Below are positions 345 to 13,707 of a DNA stretch of 14,163 nt, piece by piece (position 1 is the stretch's first letter; the number at the start of each line of letters is the position of its first letter). The stretch is taken from assembly GCA_002311925.1 (NCBI GenBank), contig DCAK01000054.1, positions 5,196 through 19,358 of the forward strand, given 5' to 3'. Position numbers and translations under genes: made by a program. The notes under the pieces are model-generated. The model had not been told where the DNA came from. It searched no databases and saw only the letters and a program-made list of their open reading frames with translations. Source of the DNA: Planctomycetes bacterium UBA1135 (lineage in GTDB: Bacteria > Planctomycetota > UBA1135).

Positions 345-2099
345 ATGGCGGCATGGATGTTCATGGTTTTGGCAGTGGCCCTCGGTCACGAAAGCAATCA
401 AGACCAGGCTGCCCTGACCCTCAAAGAGGCGTCGGCCCTTGCCCAACAAGTCGCTGCGGATAGGGCGACAACCTTGCGCGAAGAACGCAAAGAGGAGATG
501 GAGGCCAAGGTGTTCGAGGTGAACGGGATCAAGATGCCGTTTTGGTTCAAGACCCATGGGGAAAAACCAGAGGGCGGCCGCTCGCTTTGGATTTCCCTGC
601 ACGGAGGGGGCGGCACGACCCCCGCCGTCAACGACGGCCAATGGAACAACCAGAAGCGGCTCTACCAACCCGAGGAGGGGGTCTACCTGGCCCCGAGGGC
701 GCCCACCGACACTTGGAATCTATGGCACCGGGCTCACATAGACCCCCTCCTGGACCGACTGATTGAAAACCTGGTGCTTTTTGAGGATGTCGACCCCGAC
801 CGGGTTTACCTGATGGGGTATTCGGCAGGCGGGGATGGGGTCTACCAGTTGGCCCCTCGGATGGCCGACCGATGGGCGGCGGCCGCCATGATGGCGGGCC
901 ACCCCGGCGACGCCCGGGCCCGACCCCTGCGGAACCTTCCCTTCACCCTCCATGTGGGGGGACAGGACGGGGCCTACCAGCGCAACCAGCGGGCCGAAGA
1001 GTGGAAGGAACGGCTGGCCGGTTTGGCCGAGGAAAACCCGGGCGACTATCCCCACTGGGCTCGGATTCCACCCGAGAAGGGCCACTGGATGGACCGCGAA
1101 GACGCGGCAGCGGTTCCCTGGATGGCCAAGTTTCGTCGAAACTTGCGCCCCGAGAGGGTTACCTGGGTTCAGGATGATGTGACCCATTCCCGCTTCTACT
1201 GGCTTGCGGTGGAAACTCCGACAAAAGGCGCCTGGTTGGACGTGGAACGCCGGGGGCAGGATTTCCTGGTGCGCAAGGCCGAAGGGTTGGCGGGATTCCG
1301 TCTCCGGCTCGACGATTCCATGGTGAATCTCGACCAGGAAATCCGAGTTCTGCGGGACGAGCAGGTCCTCTTTCAAGGCAAGGTTCCGAGGACGGCGGCC
1401 TCCATCCGGCGCACTCTGGCCGAGAGGGGCGACCCTTCGGGAATTTTTACCGCCGAAGTCGCGATTTCCCTTCGCGAGGAGATCGTGGCCATGGACTTCA
1501 AATCCTCCGAAAGTACTGCGCACATGGTCTTTTCCGATTCCGAGGCTTGGCAATGGAACGAGGAGGGGGGCGGGAGCCTGAGTTGGTCCGAGGGCAGCCG
1601 TTACAAGCCTCCCGTTCGCTCCCCGCTCACTCTTGGGCTGGTTCGCGACCTCGAGGTTCGGGACTTCGTCATGGAAGCGGAAGTGATGCAGGTGGGCAAG
1701 GAATACGCCCACCGCGACATTTGCTTTTTCCTTCACTTCACAAGCCCCTCTCGTTTCACCTATGTCCACCTTTCGACTCGGCCCGATGCCAGAGCGCACA
1801 ATGTCTTCCTCGTTGCGGATGCGGCTCGGGTCCCGCTTCTTCCCGTTCAGGACAAGGGGGTCGAGTGGGGCCGAGATACTTGGTACCGGGTCAAAGTGGA
1901 TTCCTCGCCGGCCCGGGGAACTGTGCAAGTTTTTTTCGAGGACATGATCACTCCACTCATGGAGGCCCCCCTGAAGGGGGACGGGTGGGGCAGGGTCGGA
2001 GTTGGCTCTTTCGACGACCCTGGTTGCATCCGCTCATTTCGCATACGCGCCGCGGAAACCCGGGCCCCACAGAACCAAGACCCCTTTCCAGCCAGATGA
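345..2099 (+). CDS. Secreted alpha/beta-hydrolase (esterase/depolymerase-like) fused to a LamG-like domain
   Basis: This 584-residue protein has a short signal peptide (about residues 1-14, hydrophobic from M5) and a serine-hydrolase domain to about residue 385. The domain shows an oxyanion-type H-G-G-G-G at 86-90 and the nucleophile elbow G-Y-S-A-G at 158-162 (Ser160). Likely acid and base residues are Asp208 (G-G-Q-D-G) and His247 (G-H-W-M-D). The hydrolase resembles the PHB-depolymerase/peptidase-like esterases common in planctomycetes. Residues about 390-568 form a separate beta-rich segment resembling LamG/DUF1080 concanavalin-type domains, with R-D-I-C-F-F-L, Y-V-H-L-S and V-G-V-G-S-F-D-D motifs, and probably bind carbohydrate. 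The ATG at 345 is the first start after an in-frame stop at 333. A periplasmic or extracellular ester hydrolase acting on decorated polysaccharide is plausible, but the substrate is unknown. Confidence 0.85.
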   Translation: MAAWMFMVLAVALGHESNQDQAALTLKEASALAQQVAADRATTLREERKEEMEAKVFEVNGIKMPFWFKTHGEKPEGGRSLWISLHGGGGTTPAVNDGQWNNQKRLYQPEEGVYLAPRAPTDTWNLWHRAHIDPLLDRLIENLVLFEDVDPDRVYLMGYSAGGDGVYQLAPRMADRWAAAAMMAGHPGDARARPLRNLPFTLHVGGQDGAYQRNQRAEEWKERLAGLAEENPGDYPHWARIPPEKGHWMDREDAAAVPWMAKFRRNLRPERVTWVQDDVTHSRFYWLAVETPTKGAWLDVERRGQDFLVRKAEGLAGFRLRLDDSMVNLDQEIRVLRDEQVLFQGKVPRTAASIRRTLAERGDPSGIFTAEVAISLREEIVAMDFKSSESTAHMVFSDSEAWQWNEEGGGSLSWSEGSRYKPPVRSPLTLGLVRDLEVRDFVMEAEVMQVGKEYAHRDICFFLHFTSPSRFTYVHLSTRPDARAHNVFLVADAARVPLLPVQDKGVEWGRDTWYRVKVDSSPARGTVQVFFEDMITPLMEAPLKGDGWGRVGVGSFDDPGCIRSFRIRAAETRAPQNQDPFPAR

Positions 2100-2106
2100 C
2101 CTCCCT

Positions 2107-2112
2107 TAGGAT
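2107..2112 (+). promoter_or_regulatory. TAGGAT -10-like hexamer upstream of the SurE-type gene
   Basis: TAGGAT lies 9 bases before the ATG at 2122, in the 22-base gap after the esterase gene. The same hexamer occurs 8 bases before the GTG at 5789 and 6 bases before the GTG at 10427. It could instead be a weak AGGA ribosome binding site, and the sequence alone does not separate the two readings. Confidence 0.25.
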
Positions 2113-2121
2113 GGGGGCTCC

Positions 2122-2997
2122 ATGACCCCCTCTCCCAAGTTCGCTTTTCCGTCTGCAATCGCTTGCGTCCTTGGTTTGGCGAGCCCTTTTTTTCTGGTGG
2201 AGCAAGATTCACCTCACGGAATCCAGCCCCACCCTCGGGTTCTTGTTTCCAACGACGACGGCTGGGATGCGGAGGGCCTCCAATCTCTGGCTGTTGAACT
2301 GAGCACTTTTTGCGAAGTCGTGGTCTGTGCTCCCGCAATAAACCAGTCGGGAAAGAGCCAAGCCAGCGAGATGTTCGGCAAGGGGTTGACAGTCACCCGT
2401 GTTGAAATCGAGGGGGTCGAGGAGGCCTGGTCCCTGGCGGGAACGCCTGCCGATGCGGTCGCCTATGGACTGCTCGAGCTTGGCGGGGAAAGACCCTTTG
2501 ATTGCGTGGTGGTTGGAATCAACGCCGGAGCGAACGTCGGTGAAATTTCCCATTACTCGGGGACGGTAGGGGCGGCTATGGAGGCCGCGGGCCGCGGGGT
2601 TCTTGCGGTGGCGGTTTCCCAGCAATCCCGAAGCGGTTTCAATCAGGCGGCCAGGTTCACCGGTCGCTTCCTTGGCAAGTTGCTGGAGAACGGCACCCGA
2701 AAGGGCGTGGTCTATTCAATCAATGTGCCGCGCCTCAAGGCAGGCGTATCGCCCCCGGTAGTTTTTTCCCCCATGGGAGGGAGGTACCTGAACATTCGAG
2801 GATTCTCGATGGAGGAGAAGGGCGAGGAAGGGAAGACGGTGAGGGCCAAGCTGGATTTTCGGGCTGAAGCTCCTGCTGGTTCGGATACTCTGGCTTTTCT
2901 TCAGGGGGCCATCACGGTGACCCCCCTGGCTTGGGATTGGACCCACACCGAGGCCTTGGCCTCGTTGAAGTCCTGGGAAGGGGAATGGCAGAAATGA
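2122..2997 (+). CDS. surE: Secreted SurE-type 5'/3'-nucleotidase (acid phosphatase)
   Basis: The 291-residue protein carries all the SurE hallmarks: S-N-D-D-G at 43-47 (metal-binding Asp45/Asp46), A-P-x-x-N-Q-S-G at 70-77 (Ser76 ligand), G-T-P-A-D at 107-111, G-I-N at 132-134 (Asn134 ligand) and Y-S-G-T-V-G-A-A-M-E at 145-154. Family members are divalent-metal phosphatases that remove phosphate from nucleoside 5'- or 3'-monophosphates and sometimes from polyphosphate. Ordinary bacterial SurE is cytosolic, with the NDDG motif near residue 8. Here about 35 extra N-terminal residues, including a hydrophobic stretch at 8-25, look like a signal peptide, so the enzyme is probably exported. The usual surE neighbours (pcm, rpoS, nlpD) are absent. 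Its stop overlaps the start of the DUF3500 gene (ATGA at 2994-2997), so the two are probably translationally coupled. The symbol reflects family, not a proven orthologue. Confidence 0.9.
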   Translation: MTPSPKFAFPSAIACVLGLASPFFLVEQDSPHGIQPHPRVLVSNDDGWDAEGLQSLAVELSTFCEVVVCAPAINQSGKSQASEMFGKGLTVTRVEIEGVEEAWSLAGTPADAVAYGLLELGGERPFDCVVVGINAGANVGEISHYSGTVGAAMEAAGRGVLAVAVSQQSRSGFNQAARFTGRFLGKLLENGTRKGVVYSINVPRLKAGVSPPVVFSPMGGRYLNIRGFSMEEKGEEGKTVRAKLDFRAEAPAGSDTLAFLQGAITVTPLAWDWTHTEALASLKSWEGEWQK

Positions 2998-4019
2998 TGT
3001 TCAGACTTTCAAACAAATCCAGTCTTCCCGCCATGGCCCTGTCGGGACTGGCTTTTTCAGCAGGGTTGGCGACCGCGACGAGCTTCGAGTCCTCCTCTAT
3101 GGAGGCCTCCGCCCTGACCTTCATTGAATCTCTCGAACCCGCTCAGCGCGAGAAGTGCGGTTTCCCCTTCGACCACGAGGAGAGGCTCGCCTGGACCTAC
3201 CTTCCGGGCGACAGGCGAGGAATCTGGATTGGCGACCTCGCCCCGGGCCAGCGTGTCCATCTGACGGATCTTCTGCAAAGCGTTCTCAGTTCTGCCGGTT
3301 ACCTCAAGACGGAAGGAATCCTCGTGCTCGAATCCGTTCTCGCCGATCTTCAACCAAACGCAGGACGCGACCCGGGCCGCTACGCCTTCACCTTTTTCGG
3401 GAAACCCGGGGACGGTCGGTGGGGCTGGAGCCTGGAGGGCCACCACCTCTCCCTCAACTTCACCGGGGGCCCGTCCGAAGAGATTCGAGGCACCCCCTTT
3501 TTCCTGGGAGTCGCCCCCGCCACCGTCCTGGGTGGGCCCCACGCCGGCCTGCGCCCCTTGGGGGCCGAGGTTGCGAGGGCAAGGGAACTTCTCGAAATCC
3601 TGGATGAGGCCGAAAGGAAAACCGCACGGCTTGCGACCGCCCGTCCCCGGGATGTGGTCTTAGGCCCCTCCCGCGAAAAGCCCCTGGCAGCTTTGGGGCT
3701 TCCAGTTTCAAAGATGTCGGCGGCAGCCCGCGAGGCCCTCTTTCTCTTGGTGGACGAATTCACGGGGAATCTTCATCCCGGGCTGGCCAAGGAGGAAATG
3801 GCCCGAATCCAGGCTCTCCCTCTTGAGGATTTGTTCTTCTGCTGGACGGGGAAACCCGGGGAAGGCCCGTTTTATTTCAGGGTCGCCGGTCCCCGGTTCG
3901 GTATGGAATACGCCTGTGTGGGGAACGACCCCAATCATGCCCACGCCGTCTGGCGCGACCTTGACCGGGATTTCGGCGCCGACATCCTTCGCGCCCACCT
4001 GGCTGATAGCCACGATTGA
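2994..4019 (+). CDS. Secreted DUF3500 family protein
   Basis: Starting at the ATG at 2994 the protein is 341 residues long. This start is preferred over in-frame upstream ATGs because it follows a GGGAAGGGGA ribosome site (2975-2984) and gives a proper signal peptide: basic residues, then L-P-A-M-A-L-S-G-L-A, with cleavage near A-T-A at 27-29. The mature protein matches DUF3500, with a Y-A-F-T-F-F-G-K-P strand pair and W-G-W-S-L-E-G-H-H-L-S-L-N-F early on. The signature C-terminus has G-P-R-F-G-M-E-Y, P-N-H-A-H-A-V-W-R-D (313-322) and D-F-G-A-D-I-L-R-x-H. No biochemical function is established for the family to my knowledge. The conserved histidines suggest metal or ligand binding, but that is inference. 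It overlaps the SurE-type gene by four bases and ends tail-to-tail with the DUF6807 gene, 13 bases away. Confidence 0.85.
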   Translation: MMFRLSNKSSLPAMALSGLAFSAGLATATSFESSSMEASALTFIESLEPAQREKCGFPFDHEERLAWTYLPGDRRGIWIGDLAPGQRVHLTDLLQSVLSSAGYLKTEGILVLESVLADLQPNAGRDPGRYAFTFFGKPGDGRWGWSLEGHHLSLNFTGGPSEEIRGTPFFLGVAPATVLGGPHAGLRPLGAEVARARELLEILDEAERKTARLATARPRDVVLGPSREKPLAALGLPVSKMSAAAREALFLLVDEFTGNLHPGLAKEEMARIQALPLEDLFFCWTGKPGEGPFYFRVAGPRFGMEYACVGNDPNHAHAVWRDLDRDFGADILRAHLADSHD

Positions 4020-4036
4020 CCCCGGACCGCGGTCAA
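4016..4036. terminator. Small inverted repeat between convergent genes
   Basis: TTGACC (4016-4021) and GGTCAA (4031-4036) are perfect inverted repeats around a 9-base loop, and each arm contains the TGA stop of one of the two convergent genes. There is no T-run after either arm and the stem is only 6 bp, so terminator function is uncertain. An overlapping perfect palindrome, GACCGCGGTC, lies at 4025-4034. Confidence 0.2.
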
Positions 4037-5769
4037 CTGTTCGCAAAATCCAGAAAGAGAGTTTCGACCTTTTCCGCCGCGGGGATTTCCGGGAAGAGAA
4101 CCACGCGCCACCTAAATTGGAGGGATTCTCCCGGCGGAATCTCAATCCTGCCGGAACCTTCCGGGGCGCCTTCGAAGGCGTGAAGCCCGAAAGGATTTGC
4201 CGCGACCAGCCCGTAGGTCCGTGCGTGCCAAGGGGTGGGGTGGCGTGGATTGCCGGGGTGGTCCATCACCGCCACGGCTGCCGGGCCCCTGGAAAGTTCC
4301 CCCGAAGCCATCACCCATCGCGACCGTTGCCCCCAGGCAACTTTCCCCCGATTCCCTTCCGAATTGACGAGGGTTCCTCCTTGGTCGGCTACCAATTCCG
4401 CCGCAAGGCGGAGGGCGAAGGTCCCCTCCTTCGTGTCCCCGAAAACAAGCCCGTCGCCCCCGGCTTCCAGGGTGATGCTGAAATCAAGGCCCCATGCCGA
4501 CCCCCTCTTGAAAAAATCAATCCGACGTCGGTCCGAGAACACTTCTCGATCCGAGGGCCCCGACCAGGAACTCTCCATTTCAAGCCATCCCCGGCCTTCA
4601 CCCGAGCCCATTCCCAGAATTCGATTCGCGCGAACCTTCGCCTCCGGGTCGTGCCAAAAGTCGAGGCCGTCAATCTTGCCGTGCGCGAACCACAGAGATT
4701 GGTGATGGGGGTGGTCCTGCTTTCCGCCCTGGCCGCCTTCCCTTGGCCACGCCCGCGACAGGGCCTGTCCCGCCGAATTACGAAGCGGCCAGAAATCAGG
4801 ATGGCGACGGTCCATCTTGAGCTCGGTGAAAGGTCGGCCGCCGATGTAAATCTTGGCTCCTCCCCCGGCGGTGGGAGTCACCTCCACCCAACCGGGGCCG
4901 CGGTGCACTGGCAGGGCTCGATCTCCTTGGAGCTCGAACCGAGAGTTGATTTCCTCCAGCTGACGGTCAACCCCTATTTCAGCCCCGGGGACGAATCCGG
5001 GAACCGTGATTACCTGGACCACCGCCCCTCCAACCCCCCGGTGGACCATCCCACGGGGCAGATATACGAGGTCGTCGGGTTGGATAGGAATGGATCGCAA
5101 CAAACCTGCCGCATCCTCGGGGCCGAGGTCGTCCGGGTCGAGGATACCGGCAAGGTCTTCGCCAACGACGAGCCGGGCTCCCGGGGGAGCTTCCTGGACC
5201 AGGTAGAACTCGTCGAACCCTCCTTCCTTGGGGTGGTAGTGGGTGAAGGAATCCCAAATGCGCACCCGATGGGCGTTGATTTGACGGGAGAGATAGGGCC
5301 CGTTCTTTCCCTGCCAAGTCAGGAGAATGCGACGATAGGCGTCTCCTTCCGTGGCGCATCCGCCCGGGGTGTCGGTGATGTTTTCGTCCCAGTCGGGCCG
5401 GATGTTGGAGGGTCGGCTTGCTGCGAGCGGCTTGGGCAGGGTGAAGACCAGGACACCGGCAGGGGGGTCGAAGAGAACCGTGTCTCCTTGCCGAAGCCGA
5501 AGGAGGTCGCCCACTTCATAGGGGGATGTTTCCTTCCCCAAGGTGCACATTCCCTCTCCCACTTGGACGAAGGCGACGGTGGGGGCGGAGGCCTGAAACA
5601 GGGGGGTGTCGGGTAGCCATTCGAGGGTGTGTCCAGGATTGGCGGCTTCGAATTGACTCCTAACCTGGCCGATGTCGGAGGCATCCGGCCCAAGGTTGAC
5701 CAAGGCCGGCCCCTGGAAACCAAACAGGCCTGAAGCCAGGGCGAACCAGGCGGCCAACACTTTCCACAT
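4033..5769 (-). CDS. Exported bicupin fused to DUF6807 (PmoA-like) domain
   Basis: The 578-residue protein starts at the ATG at 5769 with a signal peptide (M-W-K-V-L-A-A-W-F-A, cleavage near residue 18). The frame is open further upstream, but that extension is antisense to the Gfo/Idh/MocA gene and looks non-coding. Residues about 60-112 look like a degenerate cupin barrel. Residues 165-255 form a second cupin with candidate metal ligands His177 and His179 (T-H-Y-H-P), Glu187 and His243. From about 295 to the end it matches DUF6807, often labelled methane oxygenase PmoA in databases, with D-H-P-H-H-Q-S-L-W-F-A-H at 352-363 and D-F-W at 370-372. Despite that label it is unrelated to particulate methane monooxygenase catalysis. 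In planctomycetes such domains often sit beside Gfo/Idh/MocA genes, as here, where the neighbour is divergent with a 19-base gap. Function is unknown; a carbohydrate-related role is inference. Confidence 0.8.
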   Translation of the reverse strand: MWKVLAAWFALASGLFGFQGPALVNLGPDASDIGQVRSQFEAANPGHTLEWLPDTPLFQASAPTVAFVQVGEGMCTLGKETSPYEVGDLLRLRQGDTVLFDPPAGVLVFTLPKPLAASRPSNIRPDWDENITDTPGGCATEGDAYRRILLTWQGKNGPYLSRQINAHRVRIWDSFTHYHPKEGGFDEFYLVQEAPPGARLVVGEDLAGILDPDDLGPEDAAGLLRSIPIQPDDLVYLPRGMVHRGVGGAVVQVITVPGFVPGAEIGVDRQLEEINSRFELQGDRALPVHRGPGWVEVTPTAGGGAKIYIGGRPFTELKMDRRHPDFWPLRNSAGQALSRAWPREGGQGGKQDHPHHQSLWFAHGKIDGLDFWHDPEAKVRANRILGMGSGEGRGWLEMESSWSGPSDREVFSDRRRIDFFKRGSAWGLDFSITLEAGGDGLVFGDTKEGTFALRLAAELVADQGGTLVNSEGNRGKVAWGQRSRWVMASGELSRGPAAVAVMDHPGNPRHPTPWHARTYGLVAANPFGLHAFEGAPEGSGRIEIPPGESLQFRWRVVLFPEIPAAEKVETLFLDFANS

Positions 5770-5774
5770 GTCTC

Positions 5775-5781
5775 TAGGATA
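5775..5781. promoter_or_regulatory. Overlapping divergent -10-like motif TAGGATA
   Basis: One 7-base motif reads TAGGAT on the plus strand, 8 bases before the GTG at 5789. It reads TATCCT on the minus strand, 6 bases before the ATG at 5769. It lies in a 19-base divergent gap and could be a bidirectional promoter giving near-leaderless mRNAs. On the plus strand the AGGA could also act as a Shine-Dalgarno site. Confidence 0.3.
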
Positions 5782-5788
5782 GAAGGCC

Positions 5789-7267
5789 GTGGTTCCAACC
5801 CTTTCCACTCGAAGGTCCTTCATCCGCACCAGCGGAGGAGCCTTGGTTGGGCTGGCGGCCCTCGGATGCTCCATGCCCCGGGCGCGGACCGCCATGGGGC
5901 CGGACGAGGAAATTCGAATCGCTGTCGCCGGCATCCGCAGCCGGGGCCGCAGCCACATCGAGGGCCTCCGCAAGCTCGCCAACGTCCGTGTGGTGGCCCT
6001 GTGCGATGTGGACTCCGATGTTCTTGCCCGGGAAGTCGCCCAGTTCGAAAAACGGGGCGAAAAGGTCGACGCGGTCGTGGATTTCCGCGAACTGCTCGAG
6101 CGCAAGGACCTCCACGCAGTTTCCCTGGCGACGCCCAATCATTGGCATGCCCTGCAAACGGTTTGGGCTTGCGAAGCAGGACTGGATGTCTACGTGGAAA
6201 AGCCGGTCTCGTACGGATTCCACGAGGGCGAACTCATGGTTGAAGCCGCCCGGGATTACGGTCGCATCGTCCAAACCGGAACCCAGAGTCGCTCCAGTCA
6301 GGCCATCCGGGCAGCCATCGAGTGGATGCACGCAGGGAACCTCGGGCCCATCAAGGTGGCTCGTGGATTCTGCTACAAACCCCGCAAGAGCATAGGCAAG
6401 GTCGCGGGCCCCCAGAACGTCCCGAACCACATCGACTACGACCTATGGACCGGGCCGGCGCCCCTGACTCCGCTCATGCGCCGCAACCTCCACTACGACT
6501 GGCATTGGGAATCGGCCACCGGCAACGGCGACCTTGGCAACCAGGGAGTTCACCAGGTCGATCTCTGTCGCTGGGCTCTTGGTGAGAACGGTTCGCCTTC
6601 AGAGGTCTTGTCGGTGGGAGGCCGAATGGGCTATGACGATGACGGAGACACCCCCAATACCCAGATTCTCTGGTGCCGCTATCCGACGGCCCCGATGTTG
6701 TTCGAAGTTCGGGGTCTTCCTCGGGACATCAAGGCCCAGAAGGAGGACTGGGGAGGGCGCATGGACCGCTATCAGGGGATGGGTATCGGAGTTGTCGTTG
6801 AATGTGAGGGAGGGAAACTTCACCTTCCCAACTACAGTTCGGCGGAGGCTTTCGATTCGGAGGGTCGGTCCATGCGCAAGTGGACCGGGGCCCGCGACCA
6901 CTTCGCCAACTTCATCGCCGCCGTGCGAAGCGGCAACACGGGTAGTCTCTCCGCCGATATCGCCGAGGGGCACCGCTCCGCCACCCCATGTCATCTGGGT
7001 TCCCTTTCCCTGGGCCTGGGTCGCACGGCCGACGCGGCGGAGGTTCATGAATCCCTGGAAGACCATCCCATTCTTGGGGAAGCCTTCGCCCGGATGGCCT
7101 CCCACCTCGAAGCCAACCAGGTGGATTTGAATTCCACGCCTCTCACCTTGGGCCGACACCTTGTTGCGGAGGGGAGTTCCCTTCCCGAGGCCCTGGCAGC
7201 AGACCCGGCGACCGCCCCTCTCCTCTTCCGCCCGGGAAGGGCCCCGTTCCGTTTTCCGTCAGGGTGA
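5789..7267 (+). CDS. Tat-exported Gfo/Idh/MocA family oxidoreductase
   Basis: The GTG start at 5789 gives 492 residues. A twin-arginine signal (T-R-R-S-F-I at 7-12) is followed by a hydrophobic region ending at Cys27, which only weakly fits a lipobox. The Rossmann domain begins with I-A-V-A-G-I-R-S-R-G at 44-53, where the usual second glycine is replaced, and continues with V-A-L-C-D-V-D at 69-75. Further motifs are T-P-N-H-W-H at 115-120 and E-K-P at 137-139, with Lys138 the conserved catalytic/cofactor residue. The planctomycete-type D-W-H-W-E-S-A-T-G-N-G-D-L-G-N-Q-G at 237-253 is also present. Family members oxidise or rearrange sugars and cyclitols using NAD(P), often tightly bound when Tat-exported. 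The substrate is unknown. It is 34 bases upstream of the selenocysteine-type thioredoxin gene on the same strand. Confidence 0.92.
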   Translation: MVPTLSTRRSFIRTSGGALVGLAALGCSMPRARTAMGPDEEIRIAVAGIRSRGRSHIEGLRKLANVRVVALCDVDSDVLAREVAQFEKRGEKVDAVVDFRELLERKDLHAVSLATPNHWHALQTVWACEAGLDVYVEKPVSYGFHEGELMVEAARDYGRIVQTGTQSRSSQAIRAAIEWMHAGNLGPIKVARGFCYKPRKSIGKVAGPQNVPNHIDYDLWTGPAPLTPLMRRNLHYDWHWESATGNGDLGNQGVHQVDLCRWALGENGSPSEVLSVGGRMGYDDDGDTPNTQILWCRYPTAPMLFEVRGLPRDIKAQKEDWGGRMDRYQGMGIGVVVECEGGKLHLPNYSSAEAFDSEGRSMRKWTGARDHFANFIAAVRSGNTGSLSADIAEGHRSATPCHLGSLSLGLGRTADAAEVHESLEDHPILGEAFARMASHLEANQVDLNSTPLTLGRHLVAEGSSLPEALAADPATAPLLFRPGRAPFRFPSG

Positions 7268-7289
7268 TGACGACAATGCGACCTTCCCC

Positions 7290-7293
7290 GGAG
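7290..7293 (+). promoter_or_regulatory. Ribosome binding site GGAG deciding a TTG start
   Basis: GGAG (in GGAGA) lies 8 bases before TTG 7302. No in-frame ATG occurs near the N-terminus, and this TTG directly precedes the hydrophobic signal-like stretch, which supports it as the start of the selenoprotein gene. Confidence 0.6.
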
Positions 7294-7301
7294 ACGTCTT
7301 T

Positions 7302-8477
7302 TTGAACCCTGTTCTTCTTCTCGGTCTCCTCGTGGGAGTGCAGGAACCGGTTCTGCCGACCTTCCCGGATGTCGACCCCGCGGTCGAGGCGCTGGCCGCG
7401 ATTTCCGCGAAGATTCACGACGGCGAAGCCCTTCACTTCTCCCTTGAAACCGATTTCTCCATCGAGCTTCGGGAGGGCGAAGGCCTGGAGGCGCTGAGTC
7501 GGTCCTCGGTGGAAGCCCGCTTGCTCAAGCCCATGCTGGGATGGGTCCGGATTCAAGGGGAGGGCAATTCGCCCGGAGACGGGGACAAAATCGATGTCAC
7601 TTTCGTCGGAGACGGAAAGAATTTCTGGTTGCTTGACCATGCCCGCAAGCAGCGCATCAAGACCGGCCGGGGCTTCAAGAACCTGGAGATGTTCCTGCCC
7701 CATTTCCTGCCCCTCCGATTTTGGCTTGAGGGTCCATCGTCAGACGAGAAAACGCCATGGCCCTCCGGAGCCGTGGAGTTTGCCCCCCCGAACAAGGCCT
7801 TCGAGGGATTGTTCGGTCTCGAGCTGGCCGAGGACAAGGGATGGAAGACTCTTTGGCTGGACGACGAGGGCGCATTGAAAGCCTTCACCTGGCGAACCGA
7901 CCCGGAGAAGGGGCGTCCCATTCGGGTCGCGATGACGGGGCTGGACCTGTCCCACCCCGATGAAATCTCTCCGGAGGACTACGAGGTGGAGATTCCCGAG
8001 GGTTATCAACTGATTGACCTCGAGGCCCGGAAGTCCGACAGCATGACGGCTTCCCTTCTGACGGTCGGGTCCATGGTCCCCTCGGTCGGTTTCACAGACA
8101 TTTCAGGCAGGACCTTGACCATGGAGGATTTCCAGGGCAAGACGGTGTTCCTGAACTTCTGGTTCTATCACTGAGGGGGTTGCCGCGAGGAGCTTCCCCG
8201 GCTCCAAGCCCTCTGGTCGGAGGCGCAAGGGGAGAGAAAGGAACTGGTGTTTCTGGCGATGAACGTCGGTGACACCGCCGAGGTCATCCGCGATTACTGG
8301 AGTGAATCCGGGTTCACCTTTCCTGCCATGATGCAGGAAAAAGGCGAGGTCTCGGCCTCCTTCGGTGTCCGGGCCTACCCAACCAATTATCTCATCGGGC
8401 CGGACGGCAAGGTTATTTGGAGAGGGGTGGGTTTTGAGGAGGAGGTCGTGCGGGAACTCCTGGGATTGGACTCCTAG
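7302..8477 (+). CDS. Predicted selenocysteine (UxxC) thioredoxin/TlpA-like protein with N-terminal DUF2092-like domain
   Basis: Read through the in-frame TGA at 8172-8174, this gene encodes 391 residues from the TTG at 7302. A short hydrophobic N-terminus (M-N-P-V-L-L-L-G-L-L-V-G) suggests export. Residues about 20-240 resemble DUF2092/LolA-like outer-surface domains. Residues 255-390 form a TlpA/redoxin fold: G-K-T-V-F-L-N-F-W at 279-287, then F-Y-H-U-G-G-C-R-E-E-L-P with U at 291 and resolving Cys294, and A-Y-P-T-N-Y-L-I with cis-Pro360. In cysteine homologues the residue at 291 is the nucleophilic Cys of C-x-x-C. The frame and fold are intact on both sides, so selenocysteine insertion is the simplest reading; a nonsense mutation or sequencing error (TGC/TGT to TGA) is the alternative. 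No Sec machinery is in the window. The role is probably thiol-disulfide or peroxide reduction outside the cytoplasm. It ends tail-to-tail with DUF1801. Confidence 0.8.
8172..8174 (+). other. In-frame TGA, predicted selenocysteine codon
   Basis: The TGA replaces the first cysteine codon of the thioredoxin-fold active site (codon 291), three codons before the conserved second cysteine. It is flanked by conserved sequence on both sides: F-L-N-F-W upstream and C-R-E-E-L-P downstream. Without readthrough the product would stop at residue 290 and lack the active site. Confidence 0.8.
8182..8202 (+). promoter_or_regulatory. Candidate bacterial SECIS hairpin (proximal)
   Basis: In the mRNA, GCCG (8182-8185) pairs with CGGC (8199-8202). 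Inside it, G8187 pairs with C8198, and G8189, G8190 and A8191 pair with C8197, C8196 and U8195. This leaves single-base bulges at C8186 and A8188 and an apical GCU triloop starting with G, 17 bases after the TGA. Position, bulges and a G at the loop start resemble the E. coli fdhF element. A competing simple stem pairs 8189-8193 with 8201-8205. Folding energy was not computed. Confidence 0.35.
8208..8224 (+). promoter_or_regulatory. Candidate bacterial SECIS hairpin (distal, GGUC loop)
   Basis: CCUCU (8210-8214) pairs with GGAGG (8219-8223), including one U-G pair, and G8208 pairs with C8224 across a bulged C8209. The apical loop is GGUC, the same loop sequence as in E. coli fdhF. The loop starts 40 bases after the TGA, slightly farther than typical bacterial SECIS elements, so this is an alternative or additional candidate. 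Confidence 0.3.
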
Positions 8478-8893
8478 GCCTCGTGCTTGCGGCGCATCTC
8501 CTCGAATGAATCCTTGATGAGTTTTTCAAGCACTTCAAGGTCCACATCCTCGAGATGGTTCACGTAGAGGCAGGACTTCCCAATCTTGTGCTTGCCCAGC
8601 TTCTTGAGGAGGGGGGCTGATTTCCTGAACCCGGGCATGATGTAGATACTGAGACTGGCTTTCCGGGGGGAAAATCCAGTCAAAGGCCACTCGCCGGAAT
8701 GACCGCTGGCGTAGACGTAGGAGTAGCGGCCGAAACCGACGATGTTGGCGCCCCACATCCGGGCGGTTTCGCCCGTGATCTTCTCCATCATTTGCCGGAG
8801 GACCTTGCCGTCCTCCCGTCGCGCCGGGTGACCCACTCCGTCGAGAAAGGCAGTCACGCTTGCGTCGTTTTCCTTGGTTTTGAGTTCAGCCAT
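8474..8893 (-). CDS. DUF1801 family protein
   Basis: The 139-residue protein spans the whole DUF1801 fold: N-D-A-S-V-T-A-F-L near the start, R-R-E-D-G at 25-29, and M-W-G-A-N-I-V-G-F-G at 46-55. These are followed by Y-A-S-G-H-S-G-E-W-P (61-70), G-F-S-P-R-K (73-78) and G-K-S-C-L-Y-V at 105-111, then L-E-D-V-D-L. DUF1801 proteins are small cytosolic proteins, one branch being annotated as iron-chaperone/YdhG-like; no enzymatic function is established for this type. It has no signal peptide. The start at 8893 overlaps the sulfatase stop by 8 bases (8886-8893), indicating translational coupling as the last gene of the VOC-sulfatase-DUF1801 operon. Its TAG stop shares the CTAG palindrome at 8474-8477 with the stop of the convergent selenoprotein gene. 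Confidence 0.9.
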   Translation of the reverse strand: MAELKTKENDASVTAFLDGVGHPARREDGKVLRQMMEKITGETARMWGANIVGFGRYSYVYASGHSGEWPLTGFSPRKASLSIYIMPGFRKSAPLLKKLGKHKIGKSCLYVNHLEDVDLEVLEKLIKDSFEEMRRKHEA

Positions 8894-10427
8894 TTTTTGA
8901 GGGCACACCGTCGACGGAGGGGAGGGTCTCGTCCGGCCAAGGGATGGGTTCACCGGTGGCCTTGTCCACCGAACGCTGGGCATTCCGCTTCTTGAGCTCG
9001 CGGGTAAGGATTCCTGCCATCCCGGCAAGGCGGTCGGGCAACGATCCCGCCAGGTTGTTCCTCTCGCCGATGTCATCCTTCAAGTTGAAGAGCTCCCAGC
9101 GAGGGTCGCGACCGGGGTCGTGATAGGAGACGACCTTCCAGTCTCCGCGGAGAAGGGTGGAATGCGGGCCCAGGCCCTTGCGGGCGATGATGTTGGTCCA
9201 GGTGTTGGGTTGGTGCCAGAGGAAAGTCCTTTCTGAGGTATCCATGGCCTCGCCTCGAAGAAGGGGAGTGAAGGGGACGCCTTCCGCCTGGTCAGGAATG
9301 GGGGCTCCCGCCACTTCCATCAAGGTGGGGAGGAAGTCCTCGACAATGACCGGGGTGGGGCAGACGGAGCCGGGTTCCACCACCCCCGTCCACCTGGCCA
9401 GCATGGGAACCCGGATGCCGCCTTCGTGGGCGCTGCCCTTGCCCGAACTCAGGGGCAGATTGTGGGTGAAGGGTTCACCGCCGCGAGCGTAGCTGGTGAG
9501 TCCTCCGTTGTCGGACAAGAACAACACAAGCGTGTCTTCCGAGGCCTCCAGCTCGTCGAGAAGGTCCAACACATCGCCGAGGCTCTTGTCCATTCCCTCG
9601 ATCATCGAGGCGTAGGCGGTTTCGCGCGGGTCCAAGTCGCCGTAATTCTCCGCGAACCTGGAATCCTTCATGAGCGGGGCATGAACGGCGTAATGAGCCA
9701 GGTAGAGGAAGAAGGGTTTCCCGGCATCGACGGCTTTGCGGACTTCCCGGCAAGCCTCCACGGTCAACGCCTCGGTGAGATGGACATCCTTGCCGTGCCA
9801 GGCCTCCAGTCCGGGGACATCCCAGACCGAACTCCCTTCGGCCTTTCCCTGCTTGCCCGCTTGAGAGAAACCGTGGGAGCCGTAGTAACTGGCTGGAGCC
9901 CCGGCAGCGTGGCCTGCGATGTTGACATCGAAGCCTAGGTTCAGAGGTTCCGCCCCTGGCGTGTCGATTGCTCCGAAGTGGGCCTTGCCCACGTGTATGG
10001 AGTGATAACCCGCTTCGGCAAGAAAGGAAGGAAGCGCGCGGGCATGCACGGTTCGGGGAATTTCGGCCTCCGGGCTGAGGCCGTTGACGTGCCAGGCCGG
10101 GGAGGCGAGCCGGGGGTGGGAATGGTCGTTGTTTGCGTCCTTGCGCAGAGTCCAGTTGGTCACCCGGTGGGTTGCGGCATTGAGCCCTGTCATCAAGCTC
10201 ACCCGCGTGGGAGAGCAGATGGCCGAAACATAGGCCTGGGTGAACTTCATTCCCTCCCGGGCCATCCGCTCCATGGCAGGGGTCCTGTAGCGGCGGTTGA
10301 AAGGAGTGACCTCGGAGTGGAAGGGAACCGAGGTGTCCTGCCAGCCCATGTCGTCCACCAGGAACAGGACCACGTTGGGCGGGTCCTGGGCGGGTACGAG
10401 GCCGACCGAAAGGAGAAGAGCAATCAC
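8886..10427 (-). CDS. Exported type I (formylglycine-dependent) sulfatase
   Basis: The 513-residue enzyme starts at a GTG (10427) that follows AGGA at 7-base spacing and opens a short signal peptide (M-I-A-L-L-L-S-V-G-L-V-P-A). Active-site elements are all present. Metal ligands are Asp25-Asp26 (V-D-D-M-G-W) and D-N-G-G at 306-309. Cys71 lies in C-S-P-T-R and is to be oxidised to formylglycine by a maturase. G-K-A-H-F-G is at 147-152, with further catalytic residues in G-K-G-S-A-H-E-G-G-I-R-V-P at 329-341. It hydrolyses sulfate esters, probably on polysaccharide or glycan in the periplasm, as is usual for the large planctomycete sulfatase families; the exact substrate is unknown. It follows the VOC gene by 17 bases and overlaps DUF1801 by 8. 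Divergently, across the VOC gene, lies an aryl-sulfate sulfotransferase. Confidence 0.95.
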   Translation of the reverse strand: MIALLLSVGLVPAQDPPNVVLFLVDDMGWQDTSVPFHSEVTPFNRRYRTPAMERMAREGMKFTQAYVSAICSPTRVSLMTGLNAATHRVTNWTLRKDANNDHSHPRLASPAWHVNGLSPEAEIPRTVHARALPSFLAEAGYHSIHVGKAHFGAIDTPGAEPLNLGFDVNIAGHAAGAPASYYGSHGFSQAGKQGKAEGSSVWDVPGLEAWHGKDVHLTEALTVEACREVRKAVDAGKPFFLYLAHYAVHAPLMKDSRFAENYGDLDPRETAYASMIEGMDKSLGDVLDLLDELEASEDTLVLFLSDNGGLTSYARGGEPFTHNLPLSSGKGSAHEGGIRVPMLARWTGVVEPGSVCPTPVIVEDFLPTLMEVAGAPIPDQAEGVPFTPLLRGEAMDTSERTFLWHQPNTWTNIIARKGLGPHSTLLRGDWKVVSYHDPGRDPRWELFNLKDDIGERNNLAGSLPDRLAGMAGILTRELKKRNAQRSVDKATGEPIPWPDETLPSVDGVPSKNG

Positions 10428-10433
10428 AGCGCC

Positions 10434-10439
10434 ATCCTA
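10434..10439 (-). promoter_or_regulatory. TAGGAT motif before the sulfatase start
   Basis: On the minus strand TAGGAT ends 6 bases before the GTG at 10427, in the 17-base gap after the VOC gene. It may be a -10-like box giving a leaderless sulfatase mRNA, or simply an AGGA ribosome site. The same hexamer precedes the starts at 2122 and 5789. Confidence 0.25.
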
Positions 10440-10444
10440 GGCCC

Positions 10445-10897
10445 CTAGTCGCAGTTTCCGTTCTCGGGATAGGCCTCCACCATCTCGGAGGGGTCCACGT
10501 CCCGGACGTGGGTTGCGAAGTACCAGGTGTGGCCCCCTGGGTCCCGGGCCCGGTAGGACCGGTCGCCGTAGGGTTTGTCCTCGGCCTCCTCGACCTCGGC
10601 TCCCGCCGCGATTGGGGCGTCCACATCGTCCACGTAACAGGTGACGAAGGCAGACTGGCCGGGAAGATCCCTGGGGCTGGAGAAACCGCTGTCAGGGGGC
10701 GCGGTTGCCAGCATGACCACGCTCTCCTCCATGGCGAGTTCGGCGTGGCCCAGGGCCCCCTCGCCCCTCTCGATACGGAACCGCTCGGTGAAGCCGAAGG
10801 CCTTGCAGAGGAAATCACAGGCCGCGGGAGCGTCGGCGTAAAGTAGGTAGGGGATGATGCGTTGGTAGCCTTCGGGAGGATTCTGGACCATGCCCAT
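10445..10897 (-). CDS. VOC (glyoxalase/bleomycin-resistance/PhnB-like) family protein
   Basis: The 150-residue protein begins at the ATG at 10897, preceded by GAGGGGG at suitable distance. It folds as paired beta-alpha-beta-beta-beta modules. It opens with I-I-P-Y-L-L-Y-A-D-A-P-A-A-C-D-F-L (residues 14-30), has the first ligand region L-G-H-A-E-L at 49-54, and ends with Y-G-D-R-S-Y-R-A-R-D-P-G-G-H-T-W-Y-F-A-T (110-129). The last segment is the classic VOC C-terminal motif. His51 and His123 are possible metal ligands. Members range from lyases and dioxygenases to resistance proteins, so no reaction can be named. There is no signal peptide, in contrast with its exported neighbours. It is the first gene of the minus-strand operon with the sulfatase and DUF1801 and is divergent from the sulfotransferase, 36 bases away. 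Confidence 0.88.
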   Translation of the reverse strand: MGMVQNPPEGYQRIIPYLLYADAPAACDFLCKAFGFTERFRIERGEGALGHAELAMEESVVMLATAPPDSGFSSPRDLPGQSAFVTCYVDDVDAPIAAGAEVEEAEDKPYGDRSYRARDPGGHTWYFATHVRDVDPSEMVEAYPENGNCD

Positions 10898-10913
10898 AGC
10901 ATGCCACCCCCTC

Positions 10914-10922
10914 GGATATCCT
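10914..10922. promoter_or_regulatory. GGATATCC palindrome with -10-like TATCCT in a divergent gap
   Basis: The perfect palindrome GGATATCC (10914-10921) sits in the 36-base gap between the VOC and sulfotransferase starts. On the plus strand it provides TATCCT (10917-10922), 11 bases before the ATG at 10934. On the minus strand it gives TATCCG, 15 bases before the ATG at 10897. It may be a promoter core or a small operator; the evidence is motif and position only. Confidence 0.25.
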
Positions 10923-10933
10923 TCACGTTCGGC

Positions 10934-12496
10934 ATGAACAACCCACCCGGAAACATGGTCCCCTGGGTTCTCGTGGGCGCGACCTTCGCCCTCGGATTGG
11001 CTTTGAGGGGGCAAGGCTCGGACCAAGTTTCAGGTGAAATTCCCCTTTTGGAGGTCCGGGCCGTGCTCAGGGAACCCCGGGAGACCGGCTTGATTAGGAA
11101 CCGCCCCGGCGCGTTCCTCGGCTACACCCTCTTCGCGCCCCTCAAGTCAGAGACGACATACTTGATTGATCTCGGTGGCGAGGTCGTCCATTCCTGGGAA
11201 TCAGATTTACCTCCGGGGAACTCGGTCTTTCTTCTTGAGGATGGCAGCCTGCTGAGAACTGCGCGGGTCGATGCCCCCCCGGTTTTCCACGGTGGAGGCC
11301 AGGGGGGGCGTTTGCGGTGCCTCACCTGGGAGGGTGAACTTCTTTGGGAATTCCACCTGGCCGACGAAGACCTTCTCCAGCACCACGATGTATGCCCACT
11401 GCCCAGCGGAAACATCCTTGTGATTGCGTGGGAGGGAAAGACCCGGGAGGAGGCCATTGCCCACGGTCGAGATCCGGAGGAGGTGGGCGAGGAAGGACTG
11501 TGGCCTGATTGCGTCCTTGAGTTGAAGCCTGTCCTTCCAGATGGCGCGGAAATCGTCTGGGAATGGCACGCTTGGGACCACCTCGTGCAGGATTTCGACC
11601 CTGCCCTTCCCGGCTTCGGGGATCCGGCTTCCGTGCCCGGCAGGGTGGACATCCACGCCGGTTTGGACCGTCCTATTGAATCGCACGAGGAAATGGAGCG
11701 CCTTGCTGCCTTGGGTTACGCGGGCGAGCAGCCAGAGCCGGACCCCGGGCCTCCCGACGGACGAGGAGACGGGCCGGGAAGGGGACGGGGGAGGGCCGAC
11801 TGGTTCCACACGAATTCCATCGCCTGGAACCCCGACCTGGACCAAATCCTGCTCTCCGTACGTCGACTGAACGAGGTCTGGGTCGTCGACCATGGAATCA
11901 CCACCGGGGAGGCGGCGGGCCCGGCGGGTGAGATTCTTTATCGGTGGGGGAATCAAGCCGCATGGAGGCAGGGAGGCCCGGAGAATCGAAAACTATTCGG
12001 GCAGCACCACGCCACCTGGGTGAAAGAGCCAGAGGGAATCCCTGGAATCCAGGTCTTCAACAATGGCGAAGACCGCCCAGCTGGCCCCTGGTCGTCGGTC
12101 GACGCGTGGGTTTTGCCCTTGAATGGAGACGGGACTTATCGGCGGGAAAAAGGGAAGGCGTTTGGTCCGGGCGATTTCTCCTGGTCGCTTTCCGCTCCGG
12201 GAGTCCGGGGGTTTCATTCTCCGAGGATTTCCAGCGCCCAACGACTTGCCAACGGCAACACCCTGGTCTGTGCAGGTGAACAGGGCTGGTTCTTCGAGGT
12301 GACCCGGGAGGGCGCTGTCGTTTGGGAATACAAGAACCCCTTCGGGGGCGAGCAGGAAGGCCGGGAAGGGCGTCGGCCAGGTGGGGGAGGAGGCCCCGGG
12401 AGGGGAATGCCTGGAAAGGCCGTATTCAGGGCTGAGCGGATTTCACCTGCTCACCCTGGCTTGGTCGGAAGAAATCTCACCCCGAGCAAAGGCTGA
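10934..12496 (+). CDS. Exported aryl-sulfate sulfotransferase-like beta-propeller protein
   Basis: From the ATG at 10934 the protein has 520 residues; the in-frame ATG at 10955 is an alternative start, and neither has a strong ribosome site. A hydrophobic stretch, M-V-P-W-V-L-V-G-A-T-F-A-L-G-L-A-L (8-24), serves as signal peptide. The rest is a six-bladed-propeller arylsulfotransferase pattern: L-I-D-L-G-G-E-V-V-H-S-W (77-88), H-H-D-V-C-P-L-P-S-G-N (150-160), W-F-H-T-N-S-I-A-W-N-P (290-300), G-Q-H-H-A-T-W (356-362) and S-A-Q-R-L-A-N-G-N-T (434-443). Characterised family members move sulfate between phenolic compounds via a catalytic histidine; a histidine in H-H-A-T is a candidate here. Two Gly/Arg-rich low-complexity inserts (about 271-288 and 471-493) are unusual. 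Its last 54 bases overlap the convergent hydrolase gene. Confidence 0.85.
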   Translation: MNNPPGNMVPWVLVGATFALGLALRGQGSDQVSGEIPLLEVRAVLREPRETGLIRNRPGAFLGYTLFAPLKSETTYLIDLGGEVVHSWESDLPPGNSVFLLEDGSLLRTARVDAPPVFHGGGQGGRLRCLTWEGELLWEFHLADEDLLQHHDVCPLPSGNILVIAWEGKTREEAIAHGRDPEEVGEEGLWPDCVLELKPVLPDGAEIVWEWHAWDHLVQDFDPALPGFGDPASVPGRVDIHAGLDRPIESHEEMERLAALGYAGEQPEPDPGPPDGRGDGPGRGRGRADWFHTNSIAWNPDLDQILLSVRRLNEVWVVDHGITTGEAAGPAGEILYRWGNQAAWRQGGPENRKLFGQHHATWVKEPEGIPGIQVFNNGEDRPAGPWSSVDAWVLPLNGDGTYRREKGKAFGPGDFSWSLSAPGVRGFHSPRISSAQRLANGNTLVCAGEQGWFFEVTREGAVVWEYKNPFGGEQEGREGRRPGGGGGPGRGMPGKAVFRAERISPAHPGLVGRNLTPSKG

Positions 12497-13276
12497 TAAT
12501 GCTTGGAATAGGGCTGGGCCGCAGGGCTCCTTGTGGATTTCGTGGAAGGCTCCAGGCCATCCCGTGATGTTCACGGATCCTCCCCAGCGGCCGGCGAAAT
12601 CACGAGCTGCCTGGGGGTTTACGATTTGCTCGTGTTCGGCCAAGTGGAGATCGAGCGGGAGGATGTACTTGTCGGCGTGGGCGTGGACCCGGGCCAAGGC
12701 CTTTTTCATTTCGGTGAACCATCTCGGGGTGGCGGTGCTGACGGTCAGGGGGTCGGCCAGCCAAGCTTCGACGATGGAGGGGATTGAACAAAGGGCGGCG
12801 GTGTCGATGCCGTTGGGGATGGGAATCGAGGGGGCAAACCGGGACAAGAGCGGAGCCAACAGCGTTTTCCAACCCGCCACGGGCATATACACCCCTAGGA
12901 GAGGGCCGCTGAGAATCACCCGCTTGGCCTCCCTTTTACGCAACCAGTCGAGGGCCACCAGGCTGCCCATTGAGTGTCCCATCAGCGTGCATTTCCCTGC
13001 CCATTCCCCGGCAATCGCGTCCACGTCCTCAAGGTAATCCGACCAGCGTCGCACGTGGGTCCGGAGGCCCTCGGACAAGCCGTGCCCCCGAAGGTCGCAC
13101 CCCCGGACCTCAACGCCCATCTTGCTCATGGCCTTTCCGAAGTCCTCCCATCTTCCGAGGTGGTCGGACAGTCCATGAACAAGAAGTAGGCGGCCATGGA
13201 CCTTGCCTACGGGGGTCCAGGTATACACCACCAATTTGGTTCCGTCCTTGGAACGGGTTTCTGTGCGGGTACTCAT
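12443..13276 (-). CDS. Alpha/beta-hydrolase, monoacylglycerol lipase/S33 type
   Basis: This is a 277-residue cytosolic serine hydrolase, with no signal peptide. It has L-L-L-V-H-G-L-S-D-H at 30-39 (oxyanion region), D-L-R-G-H-G-L-S-E-G at 61-70, the nucleophile elbow G-H-S-M-G at 100-104 (Ser102) and F-H-E-I-H around His245. This is the pattern of monoacylglycerol lipase or lysophospholipase-like enzymes (Hydrolase_4 type). The usual acid aspartate in the G-x-x-D-x-I-V segment appears replaced by Glu216 in A-E-H-E-Q-I-V, which could still complete a triad. The start at 13276 overlaps the stop of the MauE/DoxX gene as ATGA (13273-13276), so it is coupled as the last gene of the rhodanese operon. 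It overlaps the convergent sulfotransferase gene by 54 bases. A lipid ester substrate is likely but not certain. Confidence 0.88.
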   Translation of the reverse strand: MSTRTETRSKDGTKLVVYTWTPVGKVHGRLLLVHGLSDHLGRWEDFGKAMSKMGVEVRGCDLRGHGLSEGLRTHVRRWSDYLEDVDAIAGEWAGKCTLMGHSMGSLVALDWLRKREAKRVILSGPLLGVYMPVAGWKTLLAPLLSRFAPSIPIPNGIDTAALCSIPSIVEAWLADPLTVSTATPRWFTEMKKALARVHAHADKYILPLDLHLAEHEQIVNPQAARDFAGRWGGSVNITGWPGAFHEIHKEPCGPALFQALSAFARGEISSDQARVSR

Positions 13277-13707
13277 CCCTTCGCGTTCCGGAAAGCCACC
13301 CACAATCCAGTGAGCAGAACAAGGTTGCCGGCAAGCTTCTGCCAGGCCACCACCACTCCCGTTCCGCATCCACAATCGTAGGCGAGGTCCAGGAAACCGA
13401 CCCCTTGCGCCGCCATTTCAGACGGGACCCGGAATGCCACTGCCAGGGTGAAGACCAGGACCAACAGGGCGGATGCAAGGGCGGCGCCCCGTCTCATGCG
13501 CCCGGAAAGAAGAGCGGCGGCCGCCAGCAATTCAATCCAGGGAAGAAGGGCCGCGGCGAGGTTGAGGAAAAGCGGGGGCTTTTCAGGCAAAACCCCGTAG
13601 GCGTGGATGGATTTGAGAAAATCCACCGGGTCGGCGATCTTCGCCAGGGCATACCAGGCAAGTGCGGCGCCGCAGAGAGGAGCTGCCAAGCGAGCGAGGA
13701 CGGTCAC
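13273..13707 (-). CDS. MauE/DoxX family membrane protein
   Basis: The 144-residue protein starts at a GTG (13707) after a strong GGGAGG site. It has four hydrophobic segments, about 5-22, 46-67, 74-92 and 115-138, as in MauE/DoxX proteins. The loop between the third and fourth carries F-L-D-L-A-Y-D-C-G-C-G-T-G (105-117). Cys112 and Cys114 sit in the C-G-C-G motif typical of MauE-like members, which are linked to disulfide or electron transfer in the envelope; MauE itself supports methylamine dehydrogenase maturation. Overlaps of four bases with the rhodanese gene upstream (GTGA 13704-13707) and with the hydrolase downstream show tight coupling. With rhodanese as partner, a role in sulfur or thiol redox at the membrane is a reasonable guess. 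Confidence 0.85.
   Translation of the reverse strand: MTVLARLAAPLCGAALAWYALAKIADPVDFLKSIHAYGVLPEKPPLFLNLAAALLPWIELLAAAALLSGRMRRGAALASALLVLVFTLAVAFRVPSEMAAQGVGFLDLAYDCGCGTGVVVAWQKLAGNLVLLTGLWVAFRNAKG

Follow-up and report, generated by a model that had tools for sequence, protein, structure and literature searches.

A predicted UxxC selenoprotein joining a LolA-like domain to a ResA/TlpA-like domain in a planctomycete genome

The locus and its reading frame

The window, i.e., the whole stretch of 14,163 nt that was analyzed, belongs to a 2.04-Mb, 80%-complete MAG of 125 contigs and carries a putative selenoprotein gene, whose features are collected in Table 1 together with its neighbors. Translation yielded a frame of 290 codons, a TGA, 100 further codons and a terminal TAG. 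The TGA at codon 291 is the single internal stop and lies between ...FLNFWFYH and GGCREELPRLQ..., where a preliminary description of this DNA had placed it (between FLNFWFYH and GGCREELP). The G+C contents of the three codon positions are alike on both sides (0.631/0.41/0.759 5' of the TGA and 0.65/0.43/0.74 3' of it), so that there is no sign of decay past the TGA. The same description had considered a stop by chance to be unlikely at this place. Its appeal to the open frame did not hold by itself, since an open 100-codon stretch is not rare at this G+C, with 27 of 582 off-frame windows of the same gene also open over this length; what lifts the case beyond chance is the homology spanning the TGA and the recurrence of the TGA in relatives. 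It had also been foreseen that automated calling would cut the gene, and the identical database protein (P0001) indeed comprises the 290-residue front part only. P0002 and P0003 likewise stop at LNFWFYH, and in the protein database search the closest copies of the subfamily finish at or before the UGA. Ten window ORFs (345-13375) were compared with Pfam, and no clear redox partner of the selenoprotein gene was found among them.

Table 1. Features of the candidate selenoprotein gene and ORFs around it in the window
Feature	Position	Strand	Basis or remark
Selenoprotein gene (putative)	7302..8477	+	391 residues, Sec at 291, TTG start, TAG stop 8475-8477
GGAG, likely ribosome-binding site	7290..7293	+	8 nt 5' of TTG start; suggested by sequence
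Stop codon of upstream neighbor gene	7265-7267
LolA-like N-terminal domain (predicted)	7365..8030	+	residues 22-243
ResA/TlpA-like thioredoxin-fold domain (predicted)	8055..8474	+	residues 252-391
UGA, very probably read as selenocysteine	8172..8174	+	residue 291, first position of UxxC
Resolving cysteine (UGGC)	8181..8183	+	residue 294; sequence, role expected from thioredoxin chemistry
Pro360 of YPT, thioredoxin cis-proline position	8379..8381	+	sequence, cis state expected from family
SECIS-like hairpin, consensus fold	8173..8213	+	RNAalifold, 11 core sequences
Lower stem of hairpin	8173-8177 with 8209-8213
Upper stem of hairpin	8189-8194 with 8200-8205
Loop of hairpin	8195-8199
ORF	345-2096		no Pfam match
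SurE	2122-2994		Pfam
DUF3500	2931-4016		Pfam
DUF6807	4036-6138	-	Pfam
Gfo/Idh/MocA	5789-7264		Pfam
DUF1801	8477-9076	-	Pfam
Sulfatase	8889-10427	-	Pfam
Glyoxalase	10448-11026	-	Pfam
Arylsulfotransferase-like	10862-12493		Pfam
Serine hydrolase	12446-13375	-	Pfam

Domain architecture and active site

The C-terminal part has a predicted thioredoxin fold and passes the Pfam gathering cut-off, as befits a TlpA/ResA-type redoxin. The match to AhpC-TSA spans the TGA (residues 255-373, 67.1 bits, cut-off 26), as does the match to Redoxin (residues 255-380, 58.2 bits), and the 100 residues 3' of the TGA alone still reach 39.2 bits to AhpC-TSA, above the cut-off. In the active site U291-G-G-C294, the TGA falls on the first of the two CxxC cysteines of ResA/TlpA proteins (NFWFYH-U-GGC-REELP), and the aligned homologues show U or C at the residue-291 column. 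Both the proposed position of the TGA at the first Cys of CxxC and the claim of a thioredoxin fold with its proline in the 100 codons beyond it are borne out. Ten places in the window genome match AhpC-TSA, three of which contain a TGA, namely the window gene, a second member of its subfamily at C77:9043-9399 (34% identity) and C77:1017-1256 (TWUGPC). The last of these (L063) is partly masked by N runs.

The N-terminus of the protein is hydrophobic. As the C-terminal domain filled the structure comparison of the whole model, the N-terminal domain was modelled and compared separately, and a LolA-like fold was then found to cover most of it. The predicted structures thus describe a protein with a LolA-like N-terminus joined to a ResA-like UxxC domain.

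Selenocysteine machinery of the window genome

The tRNA-Sec of the window genome scores 58.2 bits (cut-off 47) and has the anticodon TCA, with two gene bases given as N. SelB reaches 255.1 bits against a cut-off of 242.25, and selD, which adjoins tRNA-Sec and extends to the contig end, is above its cut-off as well. SelA appears as four consecutive pieces split by N runs, the best of which scores 174 bits (cut-off 267.9), and nowhere in this 80%-complete MAG was selA found above the cut-off in one piece. All four components (selA, selB, tRNA-Sec and selD) are therefore represented, selA solely by pieces below the cut-off. A gene for RF2 is present, and the 12 window ORFs, some of which are perhaps not genes, end in TGA (nine) or TAG (three). 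UGA thus serves as an ordinary stop elsewhere.

The subfamily and its TGA site

Characteristic of the subfamily are LLNFWFYH-U-GGC-REEMP and an approximately 220-residue front domain. When its profile was compared with 154 class genomes, 13 of the best 15 matches (E up to 5e-61) held one TGA. The remaining two are the G001 copy, which ends before the site, and a second copy in G010 with neither Cys nor Sec there. One of the 13 (G174, FYT-U-GAC) comes from another family. Besides the window gene, the TGA occupies the same column in its paralogue and in 11 further profile matches in other genomes, while no intact Cys orthologue of the subfamily was found among the best 15 matches to the 154 genomes. 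In a tree of 16 sequences, P0002, P0003, P0004 and the window protein form one group (100/100), which has a long stem, P0004 being the cut-off G001 copy. G001 (UBA8587) is the only other genome of the same genus that was examined, and its copy (L024 276-1050, G001:C17) reaches about residue 265 before unrelated sequence sets in, i.e., it ends ahead of the thioredoxin domain, either through real loss or through an assembly join. A separate scan of genome contigs gave two relatives, one of them this same UBA8587 copy lacking the thioredoxin part.

Several observations concern the surroundings of subfamily members. In G010 (L036 1936-2394, minus strand) and G003 (L033 1-1041, plus strand), a further copy lies next to the Sec gene, keeps the thioredoxin part and has neither Cys nor Sec at the active-site column; such copies could possibly be non-catalytic partners. 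The second subfamily copy of the window genome (L139, G000:C77:5500-12500) directly follows a DEAD/DEAH-type helicase gene, and the same arrangement is seen in G013 (L107). A cyclase-like gene is found near the C77 copy and also beside the G003 copy (L033). The window copy has different neighbors from the C77 copy; these neighbor names were read from translations. The class profile search also gave a redoxin match with two internal TGAs (G128:C36:45906-46274), in which there are perhaps two Sec residues.

Recurrence of the TGA across the phylum

The joined protein matches 60 of 61 relatives. Among the 150 matches listed for these genomes, 117 contain exactly one TGA and 33 no stop; a TGA match occurs in 56 of the 59 genomes represented, with up to five UxxC paralogues per genome among the matches listed. 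tRNA-Sec lies above the cut-off in 56 of the 61 relatives, the others being G011, G015, G018, G027 and G032. Four of these five (G011, G015, G018 and G032, the last 92% complete) have TGA matches nevertheless. Inside the matches listed in the relatives, the phylum panel and the class profile search, TAA and TAG never occur, only TGA or no stop.

The phylum panel comprised 59 genomes, 52 of which match the joined protein and 47 of which pass the Rfam cut-off for tRNA-Sec. As tRNA-Sec scores of 47-54 overlap with those of other long-armed tRNAs, a stricter line of 58 bits was drawn, a judgement made after the scores had been seen, which gave 42 strong genomes and 17 others. Among the 150 matches listed for the panel, a TGA match was found in 25 of the 36 genomes above this line compared to 1 of the 11 below it (G032; Fisher p 0.001), and at Rfam's own cut-off the figures for the matches listed are 25 of 38 and 1 of 9. 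The 69 distinct sites at the catalytic column comprise 58 TGA, eight Cys codons and three others (CAG, TCG, AGT), a ratio that is not a frequency, as 39 of the 40 added stretches were picked for their TGA.

A SECIS-like hairpin after the UGA

Downstream of the UGA, 11 ungapped core sequences gave the RNAalifold consensus.(((((...........((((((.....))))))...))))) starting from the TGA; the twelfth core sequence (G010) was left out, as it is cut by a contig end. In this hairpin 111 of 121 cells are paired compared to at most 62 in slid versions, and the covariation score is 0.221 vs. 0.152; neither cells paired nor covariation was matched by any of 500 shuffles. Two-sided changes occur in three pairs, a number reached by 150 of 500 shuffles and so not unusual, and the cells with a two-sided change and the further pair types were reached by 2 and 8 of 500 shuffles, respectively. 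G174 preserves 10 of the 11 pairs and was found after the consensus had been made. This conserved two-helix hairpin, which shows some covariation, resembles bacterial SECIS elements in following the UGA.

Folding energies were compared with those of synonymous-codon shuffles. For bases 9-42 after the site, the mean z was -1.21 for the 11 core sequences, -1.21 for 46 other TGA sites and -0.24 for eight Cys sites, and three control stretches gave values between -0.52 and +0.42. For bases 3-48, the core showed no excess folding (z -0.14), with -1.34 for the other TGA sites and -0.37 for the Cys sites. The 48 nt of the window gene alone are not folded more stably than their dinucleotide shuffles (z -0.28), RNAalifold found no common structure among 42 mixed UxxC sites, those with GPC, and Rfam gave no match at 8100-8300. 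Another UxxC subfamily (GDW/GFW-U-GPC; L071, L075, L076, L083, L096, L097) carries a strong hairpin of a different type, whose loop is GGUC and which lies farther out, at about 28-45 bases from the TGA.

According to the bSECIS rules given in PMC13188914, an upper stem of 4-16 bp bears a loop of 3-9 nt at 16-37 nt from the UGA with an energy of at most -7.5 kcal/mol, and a G stands in the first two loop positions. The core consensus hairpin, with a 6-bp upper stem and a 5-nt loop 20 nt from the UGA, agrees with these rules for stem, loop and distance, and the energy of the window sequence in this fold (-15.1 kcal/mol) also lies within them. The minimum-energy fold of the window copy (-20 kcal/mol) differs from the consensus and places a loop GCU at 8192-8194, 17 nt from the UGA. 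Only in this minimum-energy fold, and not in the consensus fold, does the window copy obey the loop-G rule of PMC13188914. In the consensus fold, G is first in the loop of 8 of 12 core members, the exceptions being the window copy, G005, G016 and G174, which have no G at either of the first two loop positions.

Alternative explanations

With the frame, the site and its conservation, the machinery, the hairpin and the predicted folds all read from sequence, the best explanation is very probably that the UGA at 8172-8174 is read as Sec to give a 391-residue ResA/TlpA-type selenoprotein. The preliminary description had proposed such a reading and suggested looking for U or C in the residue-291 column of homologues, for Sec machinery in the same genome and for scattered other stops in relatives; the column, the machinery (with selA in pieces) and the stops among the matches listed all turned out in favor of it. 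That a Cys enzyme has instead become a pseudogene through a nonsense mutation, or that the TGA is an assembly error, might be suspected from a sequence known from a MAG assembly with a same-genus copy (G001) lacking the thioredoxin part. However, the frame beyond the TGA is intact, its codon-position composition is unchanged, and the TGA recurs at the same column in the same-genome paralogue and the 11 further profile matches elsewhere. This explanation was rejected on these grounds and, with no TAA or TAG among the matches listed, is considered extremely improbable.

A changed code or suppressor tRNA, through which UGA would be decoded as Cys, Trp or Gly, leaves the frame open as well, but there is hardly any room for it either. 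A general code change was rejected given RF2, the TGA at the end of most window ORFs and a UCA-anticodon tRNA that was identified as tRNA-Sec, alongside selA, selB and selD. Moreover, the matches listed hold one TGA and not many, G128 being the sole match with two, and TGA matches accompany tRNA-Sec across the phylum panel. Selenium could also act as a switch between two functional products, a 290-residue LolA-like protein at low selenium and the redox fusion at high selenium. The UGA comes only after the complete LolA-like part, matches to the front part only and without a stop occur in G012, G008, G005, G006, G020 and G013, and G001 has the front part only. The short form would, however, end in approximately 40 residues of an incomplete thioredoxin domain, and we regard such a switch as unlikely.

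Proposed function and implications

For the preferred reading of the UGA as Sec, we propose that SelB recognizes the hairpin beginning at the UGA and delivers Sec-tRNA-Sec, so that the ribosome would insert Sec at position 291 and complete the 391 residues. Most likely, this protein is exported and acts as a thiol-disulfide oxidoreductase of the ResA/TlpA type, export being suggested by the hydrophobic N-terminus. In thioredoxin chemistry, the first active-site residue is the nucleophile and the second the resolving thiol. Sec291 would accordingly attack a disulfide or another oxidized group, Cys294 would resolve the bond via a selenenylsulfide intermediate, and a membrane electron donor would restore the Sec291/Cys294 pair. 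The LolA-like fold of the front domain suggests a hydrophobic ligand or client (lipoprotein or lipid), which is probably held near the redox center.

Beyond this locus, we lean slightly towards the view that TlpA/redoxin proteins throughout this class, which consists of uncultured Planctomycetota, normally use Sec as their catalytic residue, with several UxxC paralogues per genome, the LolA-like + HUGGC subfamily included. If this is true, the class would hold a large and largely unrecorded set of exported selenoproteins cut short by gene callers. Counts of thioredoxin-family proteins in Planctomycetota MAGs may suffer from a systematic error. For the present family of probably exported selenoproteins, the database search returned shortened copies only. 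Sec seems to be common at this active site in the lineage, and the LolA-like fusion points to hydrophobic or lipidated clients on which a redox step would depend on selenium. The hairpins collected here, of which some lack the usual loop G, offer test material for SECIS rules.

Comparison with known systems

Sec in UxxC thioredoxin-fold proteins is of a known kind (PMC1794560, PMC2398784, PMC13188914), and Sec genes have been reported in planctomycetes (PMC4807772). The label "unannotated-type" in the preliminary description was too strong, as the 2026 review PMC13188914 lists UxxC TlpA/redoxin selenoproteins. The titles and abstract starts of open-licence papers revealed none on this subfamily or class. 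The LolA-like + HUGGC subfamily is new as far as searched, and so is the observation that UGA abounds at this site throughout the class. Two members of the subfamily passed no NCBIfam cut-off. For ResA (NF002854), the score was 81.8 of 170 bits, short of membership. NF041054 (WAxxUGC_long), a ResA-like selenoprotein, is of similar length to the window protein (model 354), but was matched in the redox domain only (44.9 bits, cut-off 300). LolA/RseB-type proteins resemble the N-terminal domain in predicted fold at 8% identity, and this domain is here joined to a redox domain. The thiol-disulfide isomerase-like (cd02966) and Redoxin (PF08534) selenoproteins in table 1 of PMC13188914 carry Sec first in UxxC, as is the case here; the descriptions of them consulted in that review do not mention a LolA-like fusion or an HUGGC motif. 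ResA/TlpA/DsbE-type oxidoreductases share the C-terminal fold, the active-site position, a CxxC-type motif and the YPT proline with the window protein, which differs from them in that Sec replaces the first Cys, in the UGGC motif and in the LolA-like fusion.
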